Of a stretch of DNA of 34,780 nt, positions 301 through 34,780 are shown piece after piece. The position numbers and the translations under genes are program-made. The stretch's first letter is position 1. Every line of letters starts with the position of its first letter. The notes under the pieces were generated by a model, which was given only the letters and a program-made list of their open reading frames with translations, did not search any database and had not been told where the DNA came from. Origin of the DNA: a virus. The stretch is from positions 1 through 34,780 of the IMG/VR virus record IMGVR_UViG_3300031758_000271; one strand, given 5' to 3'.

Positions 301-1736
301 CACACGAGCGTCACGGCTATGTCGGCGGCGGTGATGGACGGCACCTGGTTTATGTTGGGCGTCAGCAGGTCCAGCGCGGGCGTGACGCCGACCAAGCCGG
401 CCGTGCTCCCGACCGTCTGCGAAATGCCCACTGTGTACGTCCCCGTGCCACCCGTTCCGGTCCCCAGCGCCGTGATCACGGTGCCGACCGCCACCGCGCC
501 GCCAACAACCGTCTGGCCGACCGCAAGCGTCCCCGAGGCGACGGCGGACACGGTCATGGTCGCGCCGGCTATCGACGCCGTAAACGTCGCGCTCGGGGCG
601 TTCGCCGACCCGATTTTGATGGAAATGATTTCGCGCGCCCATTCGCCCAGCGCCGCGATTGCGGCGTAATACCGGCTCGCGTACACAGTCCCGCCGATGC
701 GAGCTCGCGCCCCGCCGTCGCCTCCGGCGAACGCCGCGACAATCGCCGTCTGGATTTGCGCGGCGGCGTCCGCAGGGACATTGACGCTGTCAGTAATCTG
801 CACGGCGAACAAGATCCGCAACGCAGCCGGGGTGGTCACATACACGGTGTAGGTCGGATAGGGCAGGACGTATCCGGTGGAATCATCCGTGACCGTGTAG
901 GCGGTCGCGCCGCTGGTGACGTAGGGAATGCCCGGCGGCTTCTTGCTCCACACGGCGTGCGCGACGTCCTGGCCGACGCCGCCAAACGCACACACGTACA
1001 GCGCATATGCGGGGATGGTCACGCCTTGAACGGTCACGGGGGAGGCCGTGCTGTTGTCCGTGACATAGGCGTCGGTCACGTCGGGCACATTGAGCACCGC
1101 GCCGCGGATGGCGGCCAGCGTGTTCCGGGCGTTCAGCGCGACAGACGCCTGGCGTCGCGCTTCGAAATCGGCCCGGCTTTCGACGTTGACGCCGGGCACG
1201 CCCGCAGTGGGGTTCGTGATGCTGTCCCACCCGGGCACGGCGCGGTATATCGTCGTGACGCTCGCCGCAGGGCAAGCGATCGGCCCGGTCACGCTGGCCG
1301 CAAACGGCACGGTGACGGTGCCCCCCAGTCCGATTGTGGCGGCCGACGTGCTGGTGTAGAGCTGGCCGTCCGTCGCCGTCGCCAACGACCCGGCGGGGAT
1401 TACCGTACCGGCCGCGCCGCTACATGTGCAGTTCACGAGTGTCGACGTCGCCGGATTGCGTTCGATGAAATAGATGCGGCCGATGGCGTCCTGCATACGG
1501 CCGGCGGCGAACGCCGGATCAACGCCGTTCACGTACTCCAGAAACTGATCGTTTTTGTTGCCGATGATCGCGGCGAGGCTGGACGCAAGCTGGCCCTGGG
1601 GCGTCTCCAGCGCCGGGTTGAGGCCGCCGCCGAACGCGGTGTTCATATCCGTCTGAACGCCGGCCAGAATAGCGGATTCGCTAGGGGCGGTGAAGCCGTT
1701 AGGGCCGAACGTAGGCGACGGGACGCTGGTGGGCAT
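300..1736 (-). CDS. Baseplate J-like wedge protein with inserted Gly/Thr-rich domain
   Basis: The 478-residue product resembles Mu gp47/P2 gpJ baseplate J proteins: an N-terminal region ([18 protein letters not shown], then [19 protein letters not shown]) and the family signature [19 protein letters not shown] near residues 175-195, followed by a repeated wedge domain. It should form the baseplate wedge with the gp25/gp46-like protein encoded just upstream, with which it overlaps by TAATG. Residues about 383-446 (DNA 399-590) are an insertion rich in Gly, Thr, Ala and Val, ending [12 protein letters not shown]. The same domain occurs twice in the sheath and twice in the cement protein. After it the normal C-terminus ([21 protein letters not shown]) resumes, so the domain sits in a loop of the wedge protein. 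Confidence 0.9.
399..590 (-). repeat. Shuffled Gly/Thr-rich domain, copy in baseplate J
   Basis: This is the DNA of a roughly 64-residue module (core [14 protein letters not shown]) inside the baseplate J gene. Positions 436-485 are identical base for base to 8392-8441 in the sheath gene, and the first half also matches 12773-12798 in the cement gene. Identity at DNA level in otherwise unrelated genes points to recent copying or gene conversion. Confidence 0.8.
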
Positions 1737-7313: not shown

Positions 7314-9233
7314 CTATTGAATCTCCAGAGAGCTGAGAGTGATCGCCTGTACCGATTGGCCGTCGGTATACCAGAACGTGCAGGGCGGCGAGCCGCGGGC
7401 CGCGCGCACCTGGGCGGAAGCGTTCTGCACCTGGAAATACCAGCCGCGCGTCTGGAGCACGTCGGAAATGTCCAAGCCCGCCGCCGCGTTGACCTGCGCA
7501 ATTTGCGCGGCCGAGAGGGTCACGCCGGTACGGATGGCCCCAAACAACAGCGCCTGCGTGATCACGTCGCTGCACGCCGTTTCGATCATGGCGTACCCGG
7601 CCGCGTTGTATGGGATCGAACGCACGGACGTCAGCAGCGACATGAGCGCGAGTTGAAACGCGCTGTTCAGCCAGATTTGATTGACGTAGCTGTCGATCCA
7701 AAGCCATTCGCCGCTGACGCTGCCCGGGTAGAAAAACACGAATTCATCGTTCGCGGTGCCGTACGCGCCGTAGAAATTGTACCCGTTGGCGATCAGTTGG
7801 GTGGCGATCGTCGCGTCGGTCACGCTGGCGACAAGCCCGGCCTGCGATTTGAACGCCAGCGTCGCGCGGTCGTTCAGTCGCTCGAAATCAATGCTCGCGA
7901 CCGCGCCCATCAGGAACGCGCCAAGGTATTGATCGGTCGGCGAGTAGATCATGGCGGTGCCGTTGTAGCCGGCCGCCACGATGGCATACCCCGCGCTCGC
8001 GGTGTTGCTGGACGTCGTCACCGTGACGTCCGTGTCCCACATGGCGTACAGGTAGCGATCATCCTGGCCGCTCGTCCAGGCGGCGAACAGGATCTTATCC
8101 GCCGTCGATGGTTCAAACGTCGTGGTGAAACTCGCCCAGTTCTGCGACTGGGCCACCAGAGCAGTCATGTTCGTTGCGGGGACGCCCTGCGGCGCACCTT
8201 GCGACAGGGTCGCCCCGAGCGCCTGTGTGAATTTCAGGGCGGTCGCGATCGTGCCCGAGCCGTACCCAATCGTTCCGGTCCCCGGCGTACCCCCCGTGAT
8301 CAGAAAACCGCCCGAAACGCTGTCGTACGTCACAATGGCCGGGCCGGCCGATACGGTCGTGCTGGACGCCGTCTGCGACGGGCTAACGATATACGTCCCC
8401 GTGCCACCCGTTCCGGTCCCCAGCGCCGTGATCACGGTGCCTGCGGTGACGCCCGAGCCGCTGAGAACCTGGCCGACCGCCAACGCACCGGACGCGACGG
8501 CCGATACGGTCATCGTGCCGTAGGAACCCGTAATCGTGGTGGTGGTCACGGATTGCGAAATTGAGACCTGGTAGGTGCCGACCCCGTTAGCCGTGCCCGT
8601 GAGTTGCTTCAGGACCTGCGTACCGGCGGTGACGCCGGTGCCGGCCAGAATCGCGCCGATCTGGACAGAACCGGCTCCAAGCGTGCCGACCGTGAGAACG
8701 TCCCCCGTGATGCTCGCCGTCGTCGACAGGGTCGTGGTCGCCGCGATGGCGGCCGTGGTCACGGCGTCGAATGAGGCCAGCGCCGTTTGAATGGCGGTCG
8801 CGGCGGCCGAAAAGCTCGCCACGGCGGACAGGTTGATCGTGCCGGACGTTTTCGCGACGCCGTTGATGGTCACGGTCAGTGTGCCGCTCGGGACCGCCTG
8901 AAGCTCGGCCAGCGTCATGGATGACACGTCGGCGCTGCGAAGCCATGGCGCGACGCCGCGGGTGTTTGTCGGGTATTGCGCGAACAGCATCGCGCCGGGC
9001 TTGATGCTGGAGCCGTCGAACCCGTCGAAATAGACCGCCGCCTGGGCCGCCTCCACGCTGGAGCCGCCGAAGTAGTCCACCACGGCCGCCGTGCTCCCCA
9101 GCGACAACACCGCCCCAATCGGGACTTGCGTGCTGTTCGTCAGCAGCAGGCCGGAAAGGTCCAGGCCCGTGCCCCCGGCCCCAACGACGCCGGGGTTGAC
9201 GTTGACGATCTGGTTTGCGGGGATGGCGGCCAT
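7314..9233 (-). CDS. DUF3383 tail sheath protein with two inserted Gly/Thr-rich domains
   Basis: The 639-residue product begins with the DUF3383 start (IVNVNPGVVGAGGTGLDLSGLLL, then LSLGSTAAVVDYFGGSSVEAAQAA) and ends with the sheath C-terminal pattern (AAGLDISDVLQTRGWYFQV, then STP-like PCTFWYTDGQSVQAI). Residues about 165-296 are an insertion of two tandem copies of the Gly/Thr module also found in the baseplate J and cement genes; DUF3383 proteins without it are about 500 residues. The insertion sits after NGVAKTSGTINLSAVASFSA, in the domain expected to face outwards. It should form the contractile outer tube. Confidence 0.9.
   Translation of the reverse strand: MAAIPANQIVNVNPGVVGAGGTGLDLSGLLLTNSTQVPIGAVLSLGSTAAVVDYFGGSSVEAAQAAVYFDGFDGSSIKPGAMLFAQYPTNTRGVAPWLRSADVSSMTLAELQAVPSGTLTVTINGVAKTSGTINLSAVASFSAAATAIQTALASFDAVTTAAIAATTTLSTTASITGDVLTVGTLGAGSVQIGAILAGTGVTAGTQVLKQLTGTANGVGTYQVSISQSVTTTTITGSYGTMTVSAVASGALAVGQVLSGSGVTAGTVITALGTGTGGTGTYIVSPSQTASSTTVSAGPAIVTYDSVSGGFLITGGTPGTGTIGYGSGTIATALKFTQALGATLSQGAPQGVPATNMTALVAQSQNWASFTTTFEPSTADKILFAAWTSGQDDRYLYAMWDTDVTVTTSSNTASAGYAIVAAGYNGTAMIYSPTDQYLGAFLMGAVASIDFERLNDRATLAFKSQAGLVASVTDATIATQLIANGYNFYGAYGTANDEFVFFYPGSVSGEWLWIDSYVNQIWLNSAFQLALMSLLTSVRSIPYNAAGYAMIETACSDVITQALLFGAIRTGVTLSAAQIAQVNAAAGLDISDVLQTRGWYFQVQNASAQVRAARGSPPCTFWYTDGQSVQAITLSSLEIQ
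8346..8741 (-). repeat. Shuffled Gly/Thr-rich domain, two tandem copies in the sheath gene
   Basis: Copy one covers residues about 165-235 (core LTGTANGVGTYQVSIS) and copy two about 236-296 (core [17 protein letters not shown]). The two differ in the same way as the two copies in the cement gene, so a two-domain unit appears to have moved as one block. Positions 8392-8441 match 436-485 exactly. Confidence 0.8.
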
Positions 9234-12639: not shown

Positions 12640-13572
12640 TTACCCCGGTTGACGCGAAGTCATTTTGACGAGCTCACCCGCCTGCGCGAACGAAGCGGAG
12701 TACCACTTCGTTTCGACGCCGCTGGTGGCGGTGACGGTGGCGGAAGCGGCGGTTTGGGTAGGCGAGACGATGTACGTCCCCGTGCCACCCGTTCCGGTGC
12801 CGAGCGCCGTGATGAAAGAGCCCGCCGTGACGTTCGCGCCGGCCAGAACCGAACCAACTGCCAGAGCGCCCGAACCGACCGCCGACACGGTCATGGTGCC
12901 GTAGGTTCCGGAAACGGTCGTGCTGGCGGTCGTTTGCGGGATCGTGACCTCGTAGGTGCCGACGCCGCCGGCCGTACCCGTGAGCTGGGCCGAAACGCGG
13001 GTGCCGGTGGTCACGCCGGTGCCGGATAGGGTCGCGCCGACAACGACGGTTCCCGAGCCGACCGCCGTAACGGTCATGATGCCGGTATCCGCGATGCTGG
13101 CGGTCACGGAAAGGGTCGACGCGGCGATGGCGGCGGTGACGCTGGCGGCGGACGGCGGCGTGCCGGTCGCGGCGAACGTCACCAGGCCCGTGGTGTACGC
13201 GGCGTACGCCTTCAGGCCGGGAACAACCGGGCCGGTGCCCGAGTTCACCACCCAGAAATCGCCCTGCTCGTGCAGCGTGACTTCCATTCCGGCCGGGATC
13301 GTCAGGGTCGACGCGCCCAGATACGCGGTGATGTACGCCATGTTCGACCAGCGGCCGACGAAGCCGGTCGGCAGGCCGGTGCCGGCGTTGCTCGCGTCCG
13401 TGTCGGTTGCAAGATCGGTCCAGGCGAACCGGCCGATGATGCAGCCGCCCGCAGCGGCCACAAAACCGTTTGGGTTCGTCAGGGCGACGGCGCGCGGGTT
13501 GGCGCTGGCGAAGTCACCGGCAACGGCCGGCGCCTGCGTGACGTTGACCTGGGCTTGAAAATTGGTAGCCAT
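12640..13572 (-). CDS. Capsid cement/decoration protein (Gp24-like) with inserted Gly/Thr-rich domains
   Basis: Residues 1-149 ([77 protein letters not shown]) match the structural cement Gp24-like family. Residues 150-283 are two tandem copies of the shared Gly/Thr module, after which the cement C-terminus returns ([19 protein letters not shown]). The insertion is therefore internal and probably displayed on the capsid surface. AAGGA lies about ten bases before the ATG and overlaps the stop of the protease gene. It is immediately followed by the major capsid gene. Confidence 0.87.
12724..13125 (-). repeat. Shuffled Gly/Thr-rich domain, two tandem copies in the cement gene
   Basis: Copy one spans residues about 150-221 (core [19 protein letters not shown]) and copy two about 222-283 (core [20 protein letters not shown]). 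Order and spacing equal the sheath copies. The 26 bases from 12773 match the sheath and baseplate J copies before single-base differences begin. Confidence 0.8.
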
Positions 13573-26148: not shown

Positions 26149-26313
26149 TCAAGACCCCCGGATCGGGGCGCTGCATTCGCCACACCACCAGCGACCAGAA
26201 AGCCCCGACGCCGGCGTATCGCATCGCGGACAGTTCGGGCCGTCACGCGGGGCGCGACGCGACGGCCGATCAGCGACCAACAGCCGCTGGGTGCGAACGT
26301 CAGCCCGCGTCAT
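26149..26313 (-). CDS. Zinc ribbon protein of 54 residues
   Basis: This frame starts at ATG 26313-26311, overlapping the end of the TetR-like gene by 14 bases, and stops at 26149. The product starts MTRADVRTQRLLVADRPSRR and contains NCPRCDTPASGLSG followed by RWWCGECSAPIRG: two C-x2-C knuckles 12 residues apart, a clear zinc ribbon. The basic start suits nucleic acid binding. Being in the same operon as a regulator and under the dyad promoter, it may be an accessory regulator. Confidence 0.65.
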   Translation of the reverse strand: MTRADVRTQRLLVADRPSRRAPRDGPNCPRCDTPASGLSGRWWCGECSAPIRGS

Positions 26314-26590
26314 CGATCAGTCGCCGCGCTTCGTCGCCCAGACCGCCGGCCGTCGCCAGCGCCAACAGCGTCCGACCCGTTTCCGGCGTAATCGGGAAAT
26401 GGCCGACCGCTTCCCGGTACAGCGTGTCCTTGTCGGCCCAATACCTAAAGATCGCCCCGGTCGACAGGCCAGCCGCGCGAGCAAGCTCCCGAGCGGTGAC
26501 GTCGGCGTACGGATGGGCGTCGAACATCGCTCGCGCCGTGTCCAGAATATGCGCACGCGTCGCTTGGGCTTTTGTTTCGCGCCGGGTCAC
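26300..26590 (-). CDS. TetR-like DNA-binding protein lacking the ligand domain
   Basis: The 96-residue product starts at GTG (GTGA overlap with the Imm5-like gene). Residues about 11-60 are a standard TetR N-terminal HTH: AHILDTARAMFDAHPYADVT, then ARELARAAGLSTGAIFRYWA and DKDTLYREAV. Full TetR proteins have about 190-200 residues with a C-terminal dimerisation and ligand domain; here only about 35 residues follow. No frameshifted remainder is visible downstream, where the zinc ribbon gene begins. TetR proteins bind palindromes of about 15 bp, and this operon begins with a 16-bp dyad, so autoregulation is likely but not shown. Confidence 0.85.
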   Translation of the reverse strand: MTRRETKAQATRAHILDTARAMFDAHPYADVTARELARAAGLSTGAIFRYWADKDTLYREAVGHFPITPETGRTLLALATAGGLGDEARRLIDDAG

Positions 26591-27168
26591 GCGGCCTCCA
26601 CAATCTGCAAAAACAATTCACGTTGGGCGGCATCGGCGGCGGCACGGGCATCGGCGGCGGCATAGGCGGCGGTACGGGCGGCATAGACGGCGGCCCAGGC
26701 GGCGGCATCGGCGGCGGCACGGGCATCGGCGGCGGCATCGGCGGCGGCGGCGGCGGCGGCGGTACGGGCGGCATCGGCGGCGGCATAGGCGGCGGCACGG
26801 GCGGCATCGGCGGCGGCATAGGCGGCATCGGCGGCACGGGCGGCGGCACGGGCGGCGGCGGCGGCGGCGGCCAAACGATTCGCCTCACTCGGATCGTCCA
26901 GCCACGCCTGTGTCGCGTCCAGAGCGCCCTGAACGCGAGGGTCAGTGTTCAGATGCGCCACCGCTCGGGCGCATCCCAGAGCGAACAGGACGCATTCCCG
27001 TTTCCGGCCCAGCTTCCCGAGGACCCAGAGCAGGTCTGCGACCGTTGCCCCGGCGTCCAGGGCCTGCCGGGCCGTCAGGGACTTGCGCCTCCCGAACAGC
27101 TGAAGCCGGACGTCCAGATCGCAGGGATCCAGAGCCGTGAGATGTTCGCGTGTGAGTGTGATGGTCAT
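26587..27168 (-). CDS. Imm5-like protein with Ala/Asp/Tyr-rich helical repeat tail
   Basis: The 193-residue product has a conserved first part (TITLTREHLTALDPCDLDVR, LWVLGKLGRKRECVLFALGC, AVAHLNTDPRVQGALDATQA) that resembles the Imm5-like 'putative immunity protein' family. Residues about 97-180 are repeats built from AAADAA, AAAYAA and ARAAA units, expected to be helical. The first 40 codons and the whole promoter are repeated in inverted orientation at 34596-34780. The gene starts an operon with the TetR-like gene. In polymorphic toxin systems Imm5-like proteins are seen as immunity proteins, but in phages the function is unknown. Confidence 0.75.
   Translation of the reverse strand: MTITLTREHLTALDPCDLDVRLQLFGRRKSLTARQALDAGATVADLLWVLGKLGRKRECVLFALGCARAVAHLNTDPRVQGALDATQAWLDDPSEANRLAAAAAAARAAARAADAAYAAADAARAAAYAAADAARTAAAAAAADAAADARAAADAAAWAAVYAARTAAYAAADARAAADAAQRELFLQIVEAA
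26630..26875 (-). repeat. Low-complexity repeat array coding the Ala-rich tail
   Basis: About 245 bases are built almost only from GGCGGC, GGCATC, GGCATA, GGCACG and GGCGGT hexamers on the plus strand (Ala, Asp, Tyr, Arg and Thr codons in the gene sense). Unit order is irregular. Such an array can change length in steps of three or six bases without breaking the frame, so protein length may vary between isolates. Confidence 0.8.
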
Positions 27169-27227
27169 AACAGTGGTCTCCCGCTTTGATGCGACTCACA
27201 GTACATCGTTTGACCGGGCGGTCAAGC
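27043..27227 (-). repeat. Inverted duplication, left arm
   Basis: In the minus-strand sense these 185 bases match 34596-34780 with four differences (two in the leader, two in the coding part). The repeat begins at the last sense codon and stop of the DNA polymerase gene (GCT TGA) and covers dyad, promoter, ribosome site and the first 40 codons of the Imm5-like gene. The right arm is cut by the window edge, so its full length is unknown. Confidence 0.92.
27210..27225 (-). promoter_or_regulatory. Dyad operator/promoter before the Imm5-TetR operon
   Basis: TTGACCGCCCGGTCAA on the minus strand is a perfect 7+7 dyad with a CC centre. TTGACC can be the -35 box; TACTGT (27203-27198) lies 16 bases later as a weak -10. 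The polymerase stop TGA (27224-27222) is within the dyad. GGGAG (27182-27178) and the ATG at 27168 follow. It is the likely site for the TetR-like protein encoded in this operon. Confidence 0.7.
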
Positions 27228-29441
27228 CTTCCGGTAGCGTTTGCCCGACCAGCCGCCATCCGCCCGAATCGGCCAGCCCGCGGCCCAGTCCGGCATGGTG
27301 GCCATAATTCGCTCCAGCTCCTCCACGCAGCCGGTCCCTTCCGGCACTTCCACAAGAATTTCGTCATACACGTGAAGGATCGTCGGGTAGCCGGCCGCGC
27401 GCAGCCCCAGCACCCCGTGGCGCATAATGTCGTGCGCGGTGGCCTGGACGATGTTTTCCACCAGCCGGCCGCCGAACGTCGACATGGCTACCCATCCCAT
27501 GCGCCCGTACTTCGGATTGCTGTTCCACGTCCAATAGGTAATCGCGTACTCGCTCGGGTCGCGGGCGGACGGCGACAACGCCGCGTCGTGGTAAGTCAGC
27601 TCGCGCCCGGACAGAAGCCGAATGATCAGCGCACGCGAGCCGGACGGGTGGTCGCGGGTAAAAAACAACATGCCCTGATATCGAAACGTCGTGCCCGGGT
27701 TCAACAACGCCAACACCGCGTGACCTTCCACGCCGTACAGCTCGGCCCGGCGGTCGCGATCCCACGGCCGCCCCCGATGCTGGCCGCCCCAGAATTCCAC
27801 GATCGCGGGCGACGCGTCGCGCCAGGCGAGAATCAGCCGTTTGATTTCGTCATCCGTAAACCGGCCCGAGCTGTCAAACGCCAGCCACGCGTTGACCCAG
27901 CCGCCGAATCCCAGACCGAGTTCGGCCACCTTGCCAATACACTGCCGGTCAGGGTGATGCTCGCCCGTCGTGGACGCGTGCGCGAGATACTCAGCGACCG
28001 GCACCCCCGTGATCTTACTGGCGCTCACCAGATAAATCGGATCCCCGCGCGTAAACGCATCGATCCGCCATTGCTCCCCGGCAAGCATGGCAATCACGAC
28101 GGCTTCGATGGCGCTGTAATCGGACGCCATGAGCGTGTACCCGTCGCGCGCCACAAACAGCCCGCGGATGCACCCCGAAATGCACAGCAACGCGTCCCCG
28201 AAATACCATTCCACCAGCGGCAGCGACCGATACGCCATCACGGCCAGAACGTGGTCGACCATGTCCACTCGCCAGCGCGGCGACCCCGGCGCGCGATCAG
28301 CCGCGCCACACCAAGGGCACGACGTGTGCGCGGGTCGAAACGGGCGACTACAGCCCGCGCATGTGGCAAGCTGGGGGCCTGCCTTGGGCAGATTCAGCGG
28401 CTGCGGACCTTCGCCGGTCGGCCGCCCCGTCCGCGCGCCGTGATGCGTCAGCAGGTTCCGCAACCGATCGTCACGGCAAGCCTGGTTTTCCATAGCGTAC
28501 AGTTTTTTCACCGACGCGGATCCGATAAGCTGGCGAAGCTCCAGCACCCGGCGGGCGTCAGCGGGTAGCGTGGGGCGCTCCAGTGCGGCCTCTACGGCGT
28601 CCGCGTCCATGCTGGGCATGTGAACGCCCCGAACCGCCAGCCACCCGCCCAGCGCCGCAAGCTGGGTCGGATCGAACCCCGTGATTGTCCGGCACTCGTC
28701 CCCGTACCGCGCCAATGCCTCGTCCAGCACGGCGATACAGTCACGAATGCCGGCGCGGTCCACGCCCATACCGCGATGATTGATTTCCTGGTCGACCCAC
28801 CAGAATGTGAGCTCGTCCGCCGACATGGGCGTCATGCGGGCGCTGGCTTGCTCCTCGGCCATCACGTCCGTGTCGCAATACGCCATAAGTCGGGCGAAAT
28901 CCTCGGGATCGTCCTCGGGCGTAATGCGCGTGCGCGGGTCTTTCGCGGTCGGGTTCCGCGGTTGTGAGAATTTATCGAGGAGCCGCTTGCCGTCCGCGTC
29001 TTTCGGCGTCGGCAGACGAAGCACGGCGGACAGGTCGCTCAGCGCGCCGGGCAGCGTGTTGACCCGCGCCGTCGCCATGCTGCACCGTTGCTGATACGCC
29101 GGGAGCGTTGGCCAGCCGTAACGGGGCGTCAGGACGTTTTCCCATATCAGCCGTTCGAACATCGCGTTGTGCGATTCGATCACGCCCCCGGCGGCCAGGT
29201 AATCGAACAGGGCGGTTGGGGGCGGGTCGCCGGGCCGCCACCGGGTGACGGGCTGGCCGGGCAAGCGGTACGAGACGCACAGGACGTCCGTGCTGGGGTG
29301 TTCGGCGTAGGCGGCAGCGCCCACGCCGGGCAGACCGCGCTTGCGTGCGCCGGGCGGCGGTTGCCAACGCGATGTTACGGGGTCCCACACCGCCCCGGCC
29401 TCGCTGTACGTCTCGAAATCGATCGTGGCGTGGTTAGTCAC
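27222..29441 (-). CDS. Family A DNA polymerase with 3'-5' exonuclease and zinc insert
   Basis: I start at GTG 29441 (VTNHATIDFETYSEAGAVWD), overlapping the previous gene by 8 bases; a frame to 29591 mirrors that gene. The 739-residue product has a DnaQ-like exonuclease start (TIDFET), polymerase motif A (MASDYSAIE, D441), a motif B of the phage type (GKVAELGLGFGG, where the usual Phe/Tyr positions are Leu and Phe), and motif C (HVYDEILVE, D693). Residues about 357-378 hold CAGC and CPWC, a zinc knuckle before the palm. It should replicate the phage genome. Its last codon and stop belong to the inverted repeat. Confidence 0.93.
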   Translation of the reverse strand: MTNHATIDFETYSEAGAVWDPVTSRWQPPPGARKRGLPGVGAAAYAEHPSTDVLCVSYRLPGQPVTRWRPGDPPPTALFDYLAAGGVIESHNAMFERLIWENVLTPRYGWPTLPAYQQRCSMATARVNTLPGALSDLSAVLRLPTPKDADGKRLLDKFSQPRNPTAKDPRTRITPEDDPEDFARLMAYCDTDVMAEEQASARMTPMSADELTFWWVDQEINHRGMGVDRAGIRDCIAVLDEALARYGDECRTITGFDPTQLAALGGWLAVRGVHMPSMDADAVEAALERPTLPADARRVLELRQLIGSASVKKLYAMENQACRDDRLRNLLTHHGARTGRPTGEGPQPLNLPKAGPQLATCAGCSRPFRPAHTSCPWCGAADRAPGSPRWRVDMVDHVLAVMAYRSLPLVEWYFGDALLCISGCIRGLFVARDGYTLMASDYSAIEAVVIAMLAGEQWRIDAFTRGDPIYLVSASKITGVPVAEYLAHASTTGEHHPDRQCIGKVAELGLGFGGWVNAWLAFDSSGRFTDDEIKRLILAWRDASPAIVEFWGGQHRGRPWDRDRRAELYGVEGHAVLALLNPGTTFRYQGMLFFTRDHPSGSRALIIRLLSGRELTYHDAALSPSARDPSEYAITYWTWNSNPKYGRMGWVAMSTFGGRLVENIVQATAHDIMRHGVLGLRAAGYPTILHVYDEILVEVPEGTGCVEELERIMATMPDWAAGWPIRADGGWSGKRYRKA

Positions 29442-29628
29442 GGGGGGCTGTCGGCGTCCCCGTGTCGTCCGACAAACGCCAGACCAACGGCTGCAGCACC
29501 CACTCCAGCGCCGCCACATTTGCCGCAGCGGTTGCGCGAGCTGTGCAGCCGGGCGGCCCGAGACGATCCACCAGAGACCGCTCGAACTCAAGCATGGCGC
29601 GGAGCTGGGCGAGGTGGTCGACGGTCAT
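29434..29628 (-). CDS. Small hypothetical protein before DNA polymerase
   Basis: The start at ATG 29628-29626 overlaps the preceding stop (ATGA). The 64-residue product (MTVDHLAQLRAMLEFERSLV, then DRLGPPGCTARATAAANVAA and LEWVLQPLVWRLSDD) is mainly helical and coupled to the polymerase on the other side. No family recognised; it could be a polymerase partner. Confidence 0.65.
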   Translation of the reverse strand: MTVDHLAQLRAMLEFERSLVDRLGPPGCTARATAAANVAALEWVLQPLVWRLSDDTGTPTAPRD

Positions 29629-29804
29629 CCCACGACACTCCCGTTGCGAACGTGATAAGTCGAGTGTTCGCCCGGATCGTCCATTTCGCAAAGCGCGTCC
29701 CAACAATCCGGGCAAAGCAGATTTCCCGTCGCTTCAAAAGCTTCGACGTTCGCGTCTTCTTCGTCCAAAGAGATGTGGCAGTCGGCGCAACGGCTCATGA
29801 CCAT
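29625..29804 (-). CDS. Small Cys-rich protein, probable zinc finger
   Basis: The start is at ATG 29804 (or ATG 29798, two codons later); the longer frame to 29900 runs through the promoter dyad. The 59-residue product has C-x2-C twice (SRCADCHISLDEED and NLLCPDCWDALCEMD), a treble-clef or zinc ribbon-like pattern, with an acidic rest. It is the first gene after the dyad at 29870-29885. Function unknown. Confidence 0.68.
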   Translation of the reverse strand: MVMSRCADCHISLDEEDANVEAFEATGNLLCPDCWDALCEMDDPGEHSTYHVRNGSVVG

Positions 29805-29869
29805 CGGCGTAATTTCCCGTCGCCCCCGAAACCCATTTCCCGAGGGCGACGCACTATGCATACGGGGGT

Positions 29870-29885
29870 ATGACCAATCGGTCAA
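29870..29885 (-). promoter_or_regulatory. Dyad operator/promoter before the polymerase operon
   Basis: TTGACCGATTGGTCAT on the minus strand keeps the TGACC/GGTCA arms. TTGACC serves as a possible -35 box and TATGCA, 17 bases later, as a weak -10. It lies 66 bases before the ATG at 29804 and 12 bases after the stop of the ssDNA-binding protein gene. It would give the polymerase unit its own control. Confidence 0.65.
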
Positions 29886-29896
29886 GCCCCTATTCG

Positions 29897-30730
29897 TCAC
29901 GGCAGCAAATAGCCTTCCGCGATCATCTGGGCGTCCGTCCAGCCAGCGGCCACAAACCCGGCGTACGTCTGGCCGGCGGCCTTGGCGGTCATGACGCGCT
30001 CGGGCACGGCGGGGGCCACCGGTGCGGGAGCGGCCGGCGCTGGCGGCGGGGCCACCGGTGCGGGAGCGGCCGGCGGGGCGACCGCAACAGACGGCGGCGC
30101 GGCGGCCGGGCCGACCGGCGTAGCAGACGCCCCCGGCGGCAGCGACGGACCCGCGCCGAACGTCTCGTTTGGATCCGTGCCGCGGACGATTTCCGGGCCG
30201 TATCCCTGCAAAGCGACCTGATTCAGATTGCGGTACATGCCCGGCGACTGGGTGCTCTGGTTACTCACCGTCGTGCCCTGCACCTTCACGTAATACCCGG
30301 GCTTGATCGTGGCAGGGTCCAGGGTCTGCACCCATTTCGACCCATCCCACACGGCGCACGTCGGGGCGAACCGCGACACAAACCGAACAATCCAGTGGCC
30401 AGCCCAGCCGTCGCGCGCGGCGTAGTGCTGTCCTTTTTTGTTGTAGCCGTCGCCGTCCGTGATCTTGTCGGCGAACGTCACGCCGGGCAGCAGGTTGCCG
30501 TCCGCGCCGAAAAACTGCGGCCACGCGGCGCGATCCGCCGCGCGAAATTCCGCAAGCATCGCCTGCGTTGCCGCGTCGGTTTTCGGAAACGCGACGCCGA
30601 CGATGTATTCCACTAGGCCCTGGCCGTCCGGCCCGATTTTCTGGCGTTTCGTCGTGTCGTCAATGATCGGTTCCGGCTTGAACGGATCGCCGAACACAAG
30701 GCGGCCGGTAGGGGTGAGAAATGCGGTCAT
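29897..30730 (-). CDS. ssDNA-binding protein, DUF2815-like
   Basis: The start is at ATG 30730-30728, in an ATGA overlap with the DUF2800 gene; a frame to 30982 only mirrors that gene. The 277-residue product has the DUF2815-type OB-fold pattern (TPTGRLVFGDPFKPEPI, VEYIVGVAFPKTDAATQAML, GQHYAARDGWAGHWIVRFVS, LDPATIKPGYYVKVQGTTVS, MYRNLNQVALQGYGPEI), a Pro/Ala-rich linker, and a conserved end (YAGFVAAGWTDAQMIAEGYL). It should coat single-stranded DNA in replication and recombination. Binding is inferred from the family. Confidence 0.87.
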   Translation of the reverse strand: MTAFLTPTGRLVFGDPFKPEPIIDDTTKRQKIGPDGQGLVEYIVGVAFPKTDAATQAMLAEFRAADRAAWPQFFGADGNLLPGVTFADKITDGDGYNKKGQHYAARDGWAGHWIVRFVSRFAPTCAVWDGSKWVQTLDPATIKPGYYVKVQGTTVSNQSTQSPGMYRNLNQVALQGYGPEIVRGTDPNETFGAGPSLPPGASATPVGPAAAPPSVAVAPPAAPAPVAPPPAPAAPAPVAPAVPERVMTAKAAGQTYAGFVAAGWTDAQMIAEGYLLP

Positions 30731-31854
30731 GTGGTGGTCTCCGTGGGTGTGGGTGGCGCGAACGCCGTGAACGTCAGCGGGGTATCGGATCGTATCAGCT
30801 TCACCGCGCCCGGCGGCCGGCGAGACAACGCCGCCACCAGCTCGGGGTCGAGACCGGCCTTGCGGGCCTGTCCGGGTGTCAGTGTCGCGGGCTTCCCGAG
30901 CGGGACGCCCATCGTTTCGCCCAGCGCCACAACCTGGTCCGGCGGCAACGTCCACGCTTCGCGGCCTTCGCCCTGTTCCCATGTCCAGCCTTGGACGCGG
31001 CGGCCGGCGCGGATCCGGCCCATGGCTTCCGCCTCCAGACCCGTACGCAACGCGGCAAGGCGCGTACCCGCCCGGTCAATCAACGCGAGCTGTAGGCCCA
31101 GCGCGTGATCGTCCAGCTCGTGGGGGACGGACTGCCCGGCGATATCCAGCACATGCGCGCCGACCGCCTGGGCCGCCGGGCATGCGTGACGCGCCGAACA
31201 GTCACGGCAGTGGTCGCCAGTAACAGTCGCCGCGCCGGGCTGGGCGGCGGCATGCGCCGCGTCGGCCAGAACGTCCAGCTCGTCCCATACCTGCCACCCA
31301 AGCGACGAATACGATCGCACGGGCGTGCGGTCCTGGTAGTTACGCGGCTGCACGATCGTGCGCGTGATCTGCCACCCCTTCGTCACATCGCGATCAAGGT
31401 GGTCCGCTTCGAACACGCCGCCGACGTAAGCGAGGAGCTGCGGCGTAGTCGGCGGTACGTAGCGGTGGCCATACTTGTAATCGACCACGTCAATGCGGTG
31501 TGCGCCCCAGTCGATACTGACGAGATCGGGCGTGCCCATGCACTGAACGTGAACCGTCCGTTCCATCGTGAGATGCCGCTCGACCCAATGCGCGCCGCCC
31601 AAATTCGCCGCGTAATCGATAAACGATTCGCCGCACTCGACCATTTCCAGGTCGATTGGTACGCCGTTGGGGGCAAGCGCGCCGACCGGGTGAAACCGAC
31701 CCTGCACCGCCTCCGTGACGTACCAATGCGCCGCGGTGCCCAGCCGGGCTTCCTCGCCTTCCGGCTGGGGGTATAGCGCCTCCATGGCGTGGGAGCCGGG
31801 GCAATGCGCCCAGCGTTCCGCGCTGGAGGGCCGAAGGATTCCCGCCGAATCCAT
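30727..31854 (-). CDS. DUF2800 PD-(D/E)XK nuclease with likely Fe-S cluster
   Basis: The 375-residue product has the DUF2800 start (LRPSSAERWAHCPGSHAMEA), nuclease motifs GTPDLVSI (D110) and IDVVDYKYG (D125, K127) with Q139, and four Cys placed as in AddB/Cas4 nucleases (C18, then C216, C219 and C225 in HCRDCSARHAC). That arrangement binds a 4Fe-4S cluster in those families. It likely resects DNA for recombination together with the DUF2815 protein encoded next. It starts four bases before the stop of the gene upstream in transcription. Confidence 0.87.
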   Translation of the reverse strand: MDSAGILRPSSAERWAHCPGSHAMEALYPQPEGEEARLGTAAHWYVTEAVQGRFHPVGALAPNGVPIDLEMVECGESFIDYAANLGGAHWVERHLTMERTVHVQCMGTPDLVSIDWGAHRIDVVDYKYGHRYVPPTTPQLLAYVGGVFEADHLDRDVTKGWQITRTIVQPRNYQDRTPVRSYSSLGWQVWDELDVLADAAHAAAQPGAATVTGDHCRDCSARHACPAAQAVGAHVLDIAGQSVPHELDDHALGLQLALIDRAGTRLAALRTGLEAEAMGRIRAGRRVQGWTWEQGEGREAWTLPPDQVVALGETMGVPLGKPATLTPGQARKAGLDPELVAALSRRPPGAVKLIRSDTPLTFTAFAPPTPTETTT

Positions 31855-31858
31855 GACG

Positions 31859-32566
31859 TCAGACCGTGGCCAGCCGGGCGGCCAGCGCCGCCTCGGCTTG
31901 CGGGATAAGATCGGGCCGCGTCAGCAGACCCGCCGTGCCTACCAGCCCCAGCCCAGTCGCAATCGCGGCCACGTCGGCGGTGGTAATCTGTCCAGCGGTC
32001 TGGGCGGCCGTCGCGCGTTCCATATACCGAGCGAAAAGCTGTGGGCCGGACAGGGTCGGGGCCGCTGGCACGGGGGCAGGCGGTGGCGGCGGTGCGGCCG
32101 GTTCGCCGGGTTCCGGTGCGGCAGGCATAGCAGGCGGGGCGGCCAGGTTCGCGCGGAGCTCGGCTTCCACCAGACGCACCGTGTCTTCATGAACGGCTTT
32201 TTTCTTGCGCCACGTACCGTCCCCGTTCTGGGCGCGGTTGCCGGCGTGAATTCGCACGTCCCACGGCAGACCCGTACTATCGACCGCAGGCGCGGCAACC
32301 GTCGCGGGCGGCGTCGCAGAGTCGACACCAGACGGCGGGGCCGGGGGGATCGGGACAGCTCCGGTCGGGGCATCGGGCGCGGGAAACGTGATCGTATCGC
32401 CGACCACCATCGGGCCGGGGCCTGACACCACCGTAATCACGTCGCCGTGACCCTCGCCAAGCGCCTCCAGCAACGCCCCGGGCGAAACCGATTCCAGCAG
32501 CTTGGCGAGGGTCACGGCGTCGCCGCGCGTGAGCGTTTCCGTATCCAGTGAAATTTGCAGGCCCAT
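31859..32566 (-). CDS. Hypothetical GLPWD-motif replication-module protein
   Basis: The 235-residue product has an acidic start (MGLQISLDTETLTRGDAVTL), Pro/Ala-rich linkers and a central motif STGLPWDVRIHAGNRAQNGD followed by GTWRKKKAVHEDTV. This 'GLPWD-RIH...WRKK' signature is common in phage genomes next to DUF2815 and DUF2800 genes and is of unknown function; it may bind DNA. It is the first gene of the minus-strand replication operon. The leader GGGAGACCA resembles the leader of the Imm5-like genes. Confidence 0.75.
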   Translation of the reverse strand: MGLQISLDTETLTRGDAVTLAKLLESVSPGALLEALGEGHGDVITVVSGPGPMVVGDTITFPAPDAPTGAVPIPPAPPSGVDSATPPATVAAPAVDSTGLPWDVRIHAGNRAQNGDGTWRKKKAVHEDTVRLVEAELRANLAAPPAMPAAPEPGEPAAPPPPPAPVPAAPTLSGPQLFARYMERATAAQTAGQITTADVAAIATGLGLVGTAGLLTRPDLIPQAEAALAARLATV

Positions 32567-32613
32567 GCCGCTGGTCTCCCGTTTGTGATTGACGCCGCCA
32601 CCGTTAGGCCCCT

Positions 32614-32629
32614 ATGACCGACCCGTCAA
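32614..32629 (-). promoter_or_regulatory. Dyad operator/promoter in the divergent region
   Basis: TTGACGGGTCGGTCAT on the minus strand matches the 24009-24024 site in 15 of 16 bases. TTGACG could be a -35 box, with TAACGG 17 bases later, for the replication operon (ATG at 32566). On the plus strand the same bases include the ATG of the HNH gene, so a bound protein could also block that gene. Confidence 0.65.
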
Positions 32630-32982
32630 GAGAGGATTGGGCGGGCGTGACCTCGTCTTACGAAACCGATAACCCGTTCGCTATCCTACGTCAGAAACGG
32701 GCGAAGGCCGCAAAACGTCGCGCACGGAAAACCGCCAGGGAGTGCGCGTTGCTGTTCGCGCAAGACCACAAATGTTTCCTGTGCGGGCAAATGTTTTCTG
32801 CAACCCGCCCCCCAACACTTGAACACGTGCGCCCTAGGCATTTGGGCGGCAAAACCCGAGGAAACGTCCTTTTGGCCCACGAGCTGTGCAACAGGAAAAA
32901 GGGCGGAAGAATGCCCACTTCAAAAGAAACGGATTATTTGGAGCGCGTTAACCTAATCCTGCACGGAACCCGGGTTCCATGA
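32614..32982 (+). CDS. HNH endonuclease
   Basis: The 122-residue product has a basic N-terminal helix (QKRAKAAKRRARKTARECAL) and an HNH domain: C54 and C57 (CFLCGQMF), LEHVRPRHLGG with H71, then RGNVLLAHELCNRKKGG with N84, H89, C92 and N93. It overlaps the helicase start as ATGA. The first possible ATG lies inside the dyad; a GTG at 32647 (VTSSYETDNPF) would give 111 residues and leave the dyad free. Role may be in packaging, recombination or homing; its coupling to a helicase favours DNA processing. Confidence 0.87.
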   Translation: MTDPSREDWAGVTSSYETDNPFAILRQKRAKAAKRRARKTARECALLFAQDHKCFLCGQMFSATRPPTLEHVRPRHLGGKTRGNVLLAHELCNRKKGGRMPTSKETDYLERVNLILHGTRVP

Positions 32983-34601
32983 CGCTTCGCCCATACCAGC
33001 ACACGCTTGTTACGGACGTCGAAAACGCATGGGCCGCAGGCGCGCGAAACGTCCTGATGCGTCTGGACACCGGCGGCGGTAAGACCGTGATCCTGTCCGA
33101 TATCGTCCAGCGGCACCCCGGCGCGTCGGCCGTGATCGCCCACCGGCAAGAGCTCGTTGGCCAGCTATCCCTCGCGCTGGCGCGTAACGGCGTGCGGCAC
33201 CGGCTAATCGCCGCCCAGCCGACAATCCGCGCAATCGCCGCCGACCACGTCGCCCAGCTCGGGCGATCCTGGTTCGACCCCGGCGCGCGGTGCGCCGTGG
33301 CCAGCGTCGACACGCTCATACGCGCCAAGGGACTGGAATCCTGGGCGGCGCAAGTGACGCTCTGGGTCACGGATGAGGGCCACCACGTCGTCAACGGCAA
33401 TAAATGGTCATCCGCCATCGGCATGTTCACGTCCCCGGCCGTCCGGGGTTTGCTACCGACCGCCACGCCCCAGCGCGCTGACGGCAAGGGCCTGGGCCGG
33501 CATGCGGACGGCGTGGCGGATGCACTCGTTCAGGGGCCGCCCATGCGGTGGCTTATCGAACAGGGGTTCCTGACGGATTACCGGATCGTCTGCCCGGAAT
33601 CCGACATGCAGCTACTGGACGAAGACGTCGGCGCGTCGGGCGATTGGAGCACCGCGAAACTACGCGCGGCGGCCAGGGCGTCGCATATCGTCGGGGACGT
33701 CGTGGCGTCCTACCAGCGATGGGGCGCGGGCAAACTGGGCGTGACCTTCTGCCCCGACACTGAAACCGCAGCGGACGTCGCGCGGGCGTATGTCGCCGCC
33801 GGTGTTCGCGCCGCGTTGCTTACGGGCGAGACGGACCCGGGCATGCGGCGGCACATGCTCCGGCAATTTGCCGCGCGTGAACTGCATCAGCTCGTCGTGG
33901 TCGATATTATTTCCGAAGGGTTCGATCTTCCCGCGATTGAGGTCGCGTCGTTTGCCCGAAAGACCGCGAGTCTGGCGACGTACATGCAGCAATTTGGGCG
34001 GGTGTTGCGCCCCATGGAGGGCAAGCCGCACGCGCTGATCATCGATCACGTCGGGAATTTCCTTCGCCACGGGCCACCCGACCGCCCGCGCGATTGGTCA
34101 TTAGACCGCCGTGAGCGTCGCAGCAGTTCGGGCGGCGGAATTCCGCTTCGCGTCTGCCTCGCCTGTTTTCAGCCGTACGAACGCGTACGATCTGTCTGTC
34201 CGTATTGCCAGACGCCAGCGCCGCCGCCGACGTCACGGGGGTCGCCGGCGCAAGTGGAAGGCGATCTGGCCGAGCTGGATCCGGAAGTACTGGCGTTGCT
34301 ACGCGGCGAAGTGGCCGAACGCGACATGCCCACGCCCGATTACGGCCGGTGGCTGGCGTCACGGCGAATCGAGGGGCCAGCTTACGCGGGGGCGATTGCC
34401 CGGCATGAAGCCGCCCACGGCGCGCAGTCACGGTTGCGAACGGCCATGACCGCCTGGTGTGCAGACGCTCTGGCGCGGGGGTATTCCGACCGGGAAACCC
34501 ATCGGCTATTCTGGGCGACCTTCGGCGTTGACGTGCTGTCCGCCCGGGCGCTGGCGGCGCGCGAGGCGAGCGAACTGGCCGCGCGCATCGATGGGGCTTG
34601 A
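32979..34601 (+). CDS. SF2 DEAD/DEAH-like helicase with C-terminal zinc knuckle
   Basis: The 540-residue product starts MTLRPYQHTLVTDVENAWAA and has the SF2 set: Q-type RPYQ, Walker A TGGGKT (31-36), DEGH (132-135), TATPQR (161-166), ISEGFDLPAI and motif VI QQFGRVLRP (337-345). This is the UvrB/RecQ-RapA-like ATPase pattern common in phages. Residues about 393-410 hold CLAC and CPYC, a zinc knuckle. The last 130 residues are helical and may load partners. Its last codon and TGA (34599-34601) fall in the inverted repeat, just as for the polymerase. Confidence 0.92.
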   Translation: MTLRPYQHTLVTDVENAWAAGARNVLMRLDTGGGKTVILSDIVQRHPGASAVIAHRQELVGQLSLALARNGVRHRLIAAQPTIRAIAADHVAQLGRSWFDPGARCAVASVDTLIRAKGLESWAAQVTLWVTDEGHHVVNGNKWSSAIGMFTSPAVRGLLPTATPQRADGKGLGRHADGVADALVQGPPMRWLIEQGFLTDYRIVCPESDMQLLDEDVGASGDWSTAKLRAAARASHIVGDVVASYQRWGAGKLGVTFCPDTETAADVARAYVAAGVRAALLTGETDPGMRRHMLRQFAARELHQLVVVDIISEGFDLPAIEVASFARKTASLATYMQQFGRVLRPMEGKPHALIIDHVGNFLRHGPPDRPRDWSLDRRERRSSSGGGIPLRVCLACFQPYERVRSVCPYCQTPAPPPTSRGSPAQVEGDLAELDPEVLALLRGEVAERDMPTPDYGRWLASRRIEGPAYAGAIARHEAAHGAQSRLRTAMTAWCADALARGYSDRETHRLFWATFGVDVLSARALAAREASELAARIDGA

Positions 34602-34613
34602 CCGCCCGGTCAA
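34598..34613 (+). promoter_or_regulatory. Dyad operator/promoter before the second Imm5-like gene
   Basis: TTGACCGCCCGGTCAA, identical to the 27210-27225 site. TTGACC (34598-34603) as -35 and TACTGT (34620-34625) as a weak -10 are 16 bases apart. GGGAG at 34641-34645 precedes the ATG at 34655. The helicase stop TGA is inside the dyad. Confidence 0.7.
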
Positions 34614-34654
34614 ACGATGTACTGTGGGTCGTATCAAAGCGGGAGACCACTGTT

Positions 34655-34780
34655 ATGACCATCAAACTCACACGCGAACAGCTCACGGCTCTGGATCCCT
34701 GCGATCTGGACGTCCGGCTTCAGCTGTTCGGGAGGCGCAAGTCCCTGACGGCCCGGCAGGCCCTGGACGCCGGGGCAACG
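34655..34780 (+). CDS. Second Imm5-like gene, start only
   Basis: The frame is open from ATG 34655 to the window edge (42 codons). The product starts MTIKLTREQLTALDPCDLDV and continues RLQLFGRRKSLTARQALDAG; it differs from the 27168 copy only at residues 4 (Lys for Thr) and 9 (Gln for His) in the visible part. Whether it also has the Ala-rich tail and a downstream regulator cannot be seen. High identity suggests recent duplication or ongoing gene conversion. Confidence 0.85.
   Translation, partial: MTIKLTREQLTALDPCDLDVRLQLFGRRKSLTARQALDAGAT

Follow-up and report, generated by a model that had tools for sequence, protein, structure and literature searches.

The small myoviruses of the MSW-3, Jedunavirus and Peatvirus groups (AB767244, MZ374361, MG432137) have the same replication block as the phage described here: a DNA polymerase, a DUF2800-type nuclease, a divergent helicase, a TetR-like protein and a primase, with the same dyad element. 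The window, meaning the whole stretch of DNA analyzed, is a complete, linear IMG/VR record of 34,780 bp in which a family A DNA polymerase (27222..29525, minus strand) and a DUF2800/PD-(D/E)XK nuclease (30727..31854, minus strand) are accompanied by a DEAD/ResIII helicase (32979..34601, plus strand); the module is oriented opposite to that of the described phages.

Long inverted repeats bring about genome isomerization in herpesviruses, where they act on the L and S segments, and in plastid genomes. The likeness to the present locus is that near-identical inverted copies flank a segment whose orientation differs from that of relatives; the differences are that one orientation is seen here, that the copies are short (0.2-0.6 kb) and that they probably number three. 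Genomic repeats have also been reported to cause fragmented and inaccurate or chimeric viral contigs (PMC6350398, PMC10563150). Contig ends at the present locus fall on shared stretches of 99, 114 and 127 bp; a difference is that the repeat here would be a dispersed three-copy gene with one inverted member, so that besides a break an apparent inversion results.

Inverted arms and a repeated gene

A repeat search returned a single inverted pair of at least 40 nt in the window, 27043-27228 (minus strand) and 34595-34780 (plus strand), each arm 186 nt long and the two 98% identical. The inverted duplication with four differences described in an earlier note on this DNA is thus real, with arms measured at 186 bp; the mismatches lie at 27196/34627, 27191/34632, 27158/34665 and 27142/34681, and from the base after the last of these the final 99 bases of the right arm equal the left arm throughout. 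Both arms open with GCT TGA, the last codon and stop of the polymerase on the left and of the helicase on the right, and both carry the dyad, promoter-like -35 and -10 boxes, a ribosome site and the same start codon, features that the earlier note had listed and that we saw again. Each arm then holds the first 42 codons of a gene copy; as the window is the entire record, the end of the contig truncates the right arm. Both near-identical arms are genuine DNA and probably represent two members of a set of three, all copies of a single small phage gene that is dispersed over a genome of ~45 kb. We refer to these as copies A, B and C, which would stand behind different transcription units, after the helicase, the small terminase and the polymerase, respectively; the third copy (B), in direct orientation to the helicase-side copy, is likely to be found on a separate contig, L004.

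As assembled, the repeated gene (26587..27168, minus strand) encodes 193 aa, and it is probably a join between the polymerase-side leader of copy C and the C-terminal half of the terminase-side copy B. Within it lies a 186-bp core (26956..27141, minus strand) at which the window copy and L004 show 0 differences, and which the helicase-side and methyltransferase-side copies match as far as their contigs extend; at this length, a short read is unable to phase the leader with the C-terminus. The part of the core lying beyond the ends of the contigs is presumably identical in copies A and C as well. In the 90 positions directly past the core, B and C show 6 differences, and at that rate the probability of 0 differences in 186 is ~3e-6, so the core looks homogenized, in agreement with the earlier suggestion that the copies may be kept equal. 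Outside the core the copies form a mosaic. The promoter leader (98% over 186 bp) is common to A and C, as are 301 identical bases counted from where contig L008 starts; the 3' end, with the first bases past the stop, is common to B and C. Copy A is like C in the middle and B is like C at the 3' end; because of this mosaic, similarity was set aside as a weak basis for phasing the copies.

The product was modeled by AlphaFold as a small helical N-terminal domain followed by one alanine-rich helix of ~98 residues, with a pTM of 0.38, too low for a fold search with the model. The label of Imm5-like that the earlier note had given the gene could not be upheld: a Pfam search up to E 10 gave no match to Imm5, its sole hit being to DUF6931 below threshold (16.7 bits against a cut-off of 27), while NCBIfam and PADLOC searches yielded nothing significant and a literature search for the term DUF6931 returned nothing. 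The gene's place behind a promoter-like dyad and beside replication genes suggests that it is expressed early. Pattern and protein scans found copies more than 90% identical only on the window, L008 and L004, the next best match being at 71%. Other viral contigs carry members of the family at 40-71% identity, one copy per contig in all 15 tested, and three more distant records hold two to three copies; the phage collection contained no match. A bacterial origin of the gene was considered and rejected, a genome scan having found no relatives. The family member stands right at the contig end in 3 of the 15 other viral contigs (3300037156_000203, 1-426; 3300025896_002183, 12-344; 3300001813_000031, 4-444), as if those assemblies had broken there too.

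A palindrome at the arms and across the family

The dyad TTGACCG-CC-CGGTCAA overlaps the polymerase stop and the -35 box in the left arm (27210..27225, minus strand) and the helicase stop in the right arm (34598..34613, plus strand). It is a member of a family-wide palindrome, TTGAC-N6-GTCAA, with 43 occurrences in 30 loci (some of the loci are overlapping parts of one contig) where mononucleotide shuffles predict 0.2; among spacers of 0-30 for the TTGAC/GTCAA palindrome, 6 stands out. Many of the sites are close to where a gene ends or starts and are followed, ~17 bases after TTGAC, by a -10-like hexamer. The element is dispersed in L056, L059, L060, L016, L014, L021 and L036, where it overlaps -35 boxes and often gene ends, and the isolates BUCT_49532, PEAT2 and MSW-3 have 8, 9 and 5 copies. 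In the window, two near-matches with 2 mismatches each are present at 29870-29885 and 32614-32629, and one near-match overlaps the start codon of the HNH gene, where the genes of the replication module diverge.

Because the phages that bear the dyad also encode small TetR-like proteins, it is a reasonable idea that a phage-coded regulator may bind the phage's own promoters, and TTGAC-N6-GTCAA could possibly be the operator of such a protein. Literature searches on promoters and TetR regulators in these phages turned up no paper that, judged by title and abstract, seemed relevant. L015 and L017 do not have TTGAC-N6-GTCAA; L015 carries GCCAGT-N4-ACTGGC four times and L017 carries TTCCGG-N6-CCGGAA twice, and these palindromes are perhaps lineage-specific versions of the same element.

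Gene order in relatives and on two further contigs

The polymerase converges on fibre or baseplate genes in the 12 related contigs that have both markers in view (not all of them independent cases, as some are close relatives of one another), and in most of those showing that side the helicase leads towards primase, terminase and lysis genes; in L021 the primase match is on the opposite strand, and in L026 a single strand carries both polymerase and helicase. The same orientation is seen in the isolates MSW-3, SppYZU01, Scuro, BUCT_49532 and PEAT2. The window is the reverse: its polymerase leads into the TetR-lysis-terminase region and its helicase, through L008, towards a methyltransferase and the fibre, an order found in 0 of the 12 related contigs and none of the five isolates. 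The window is thus the only sequence to deviate among those usable, and its own join is suspect; the breakpoints of the reversed orientation coincide with the repeated gene. The gene for a small predicted TetR_N DNA-binding protein (26300..26590, minus strand) adjoins the polymerase only in the window, while its homologues in L013 and L017 come just after the small terminase.

Two further contigs bear on this order. L008 (3300031857_000969; 30,007 bp) is 100% identical to window positions 1-27082 and runs 2,925 bp past window base 1. Its near end lies exactly 127 bp before 26955, the first base that separates the window copy (in its B part) from the others; a second, independent assembly was therefore interrupted in this repeat too, at its exit side. 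At its far end, the start of which is not accounted for by a k-mer-length overlap, bases 1-352 are the C-terminal part of another gene copy, so that, as had been proposed from the arms, a second copy exists and the rest of it is held by an independent contig; past this fragment come a DNA methyltransferase gene (phrog_363) and then, on the other strand, a fibre gene. At least four structural genes of the window phage (baseplate J, a sheath-like gene, the 12640 gene and the fibre) have in common a segment, [14 protein letters not shown]...[17 protein letters not shown], located at window 387-560, 8343-8645 and 12724-13080 and at L008 1970-2173, the DNA copies being 67-82% identical.

Neither a primase (phrog_1829) nor a small terminase (phrog_51) was found in the window or L008. 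Both are present on L004 (3300008450_010445; 7,625 bp), which starts and finishes in the repeated gene, with a terminal repeat of 114 bp that runs from the base after the difference at 27158, and which carries between the gene copies early genes, a second TetR-like gene (L004 3193-3543), the primase and the small terminase. A relative, L013, has on one contig the helicase, the L004 gene set with primase and small terminase, the TetR homologue, the holin and the large terminase, and with this order L004 fits exactly into the interval from the window's helicase end to its TetR gene. Although L004 derives from a third metagenome, we infer that it belongs to the same phage: its copy of the repeated gene is ~99% identical over stretches of 115-142 bp, and the three window segments are among the four sequences, of 35, closest to it in tetranucleotide signature. 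The summed length of ~45.3 kb is compatible with the 43-50 kb of relatives.

Explanations of the reversed order

The reading that we favor, and consider probable, is that of a phage with three gene copies in ~45 kb, in which the apparent inversion of the replication block arose from a contig joined across the wrong copies. A and C would share the dyad and promoter leader and all three copies the identical core, so that a short-read assembly graph would merge them into a single path, entered at three points and left at three. The contig of the window would then enter via the polymerase leader (C) and exit via the C-terminal half of B into the TetR-lysis-terminase region, the helicase entry (A) would be left without a continuation, ending in the 99 bases of the shared k-mer, and the 7.5-kb block between A and B would become the separate contig L004. 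The replication block would in this way appear inverted, and the true genome order would most likely be that of relatives: helicase, A, the L004 block (early genes, primase, small terminase), B, TetR, lysis and structural genes and fibre, converging with polymerase, C and methyltransferase.

A mis-join is preferred because no short read could span the 186-bp core to link a given leader to a given C-terminal half; the join of polymerase to copy B is presumably the assembler's work rather than a cellular event. Two further findings agree with it. The contig ends inside the repeat at an overlap of k-mer length: to the nearest differing base the overlaps are 99 bp for the window, 127 bp for L008 and 114 bp for L004, of which we take 99 and 127 to be the k-mer lengths of two assemblies, given how de Bruijn assemblers work. 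In addition, the missing primase and small terminase are on another contig that is bounded by the same repeat. On the other side, assemblers usually cross a branch only with support such as read pairs or coverage, and reads linking the polymerase to the TetR side may exist; the assignment of L004, from its separate metagenome, is indirect, and the mosaic copies do not phase cleanly by similarity.

We hold it unlikely, though with an appreciable chance, that the inversion is real, homologous recombination between the oppositely oriented copies B and C having turned the early/replication block relative to the structural genes, either fixed in the strain or as a mixture of two isomers. The segment does have inverted repeats at both its borders, with ~186 bp of perfect identity on offer; every usable relative has the module the other way round, and the breakpoints lie inside oppositely oriented copies; the window contig passes through the junction, and the patchy homogenization (0/186 against 6/90 differences) suggests sequence exchange between copies. 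Yet the reversed order occurs in no relative, though polymerase identity spans 40-71%, the polymerase unit would run into the lysis/terminase unit, and when contigs across the junctions were sought by exact-pattern scans, only L008 and L004 came up, with none crossing independently of the window. The proposal of the earlier note that the bracketed segment may flip therefore stands as regards the reversal and its borders, but with probably three copies, an absent 7.5-kb block and contig ends at k-mer-length overlaps, a mis-join explains the reversal with no flip. More doubtful still is the specific case of two phage isomers that differ in the orientation of the whole early/replication block, the switch being recombination among the copies of a triplicated, homogenized gene; two of the gene's leaders carry the phage-wide, promoter-operator-like dyad.

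A genuine two-copy genome of ~37.8 kb in the window order, with L004 coming from a different phage that shares the gene, is quite improbable: the window and L008 do close into a circle with a gap of ~62 bp, but such a genome would be without the primase and small terminase that most relatives with that region in view encode, and the near-identical gene stretches of L004, which fills the gap exactly, speak against a different phage. That the right arm is purely a chimera of the left, with no second copy, as its position exactly at the contig end might suggest and as the earlier note had allowed, is scarcely credible and was rejected, since the right arm has four private differences and the C-terminal portion of yet another, distinct copy lies on L008, which comes from a separate assembly.

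On the mis-join reading, a dispersed three-copy phage gene makes a clean-looking contig of 34.8 kb show an apparent inversion of 7.4 kb, which surveys of gene order in metagenomic phages would count as real; the primase and small terminase are absent from that contig, and their probable location is indicated. Should read data support the inversion, this phage would offer a testable case of a phage with recombination isomers.
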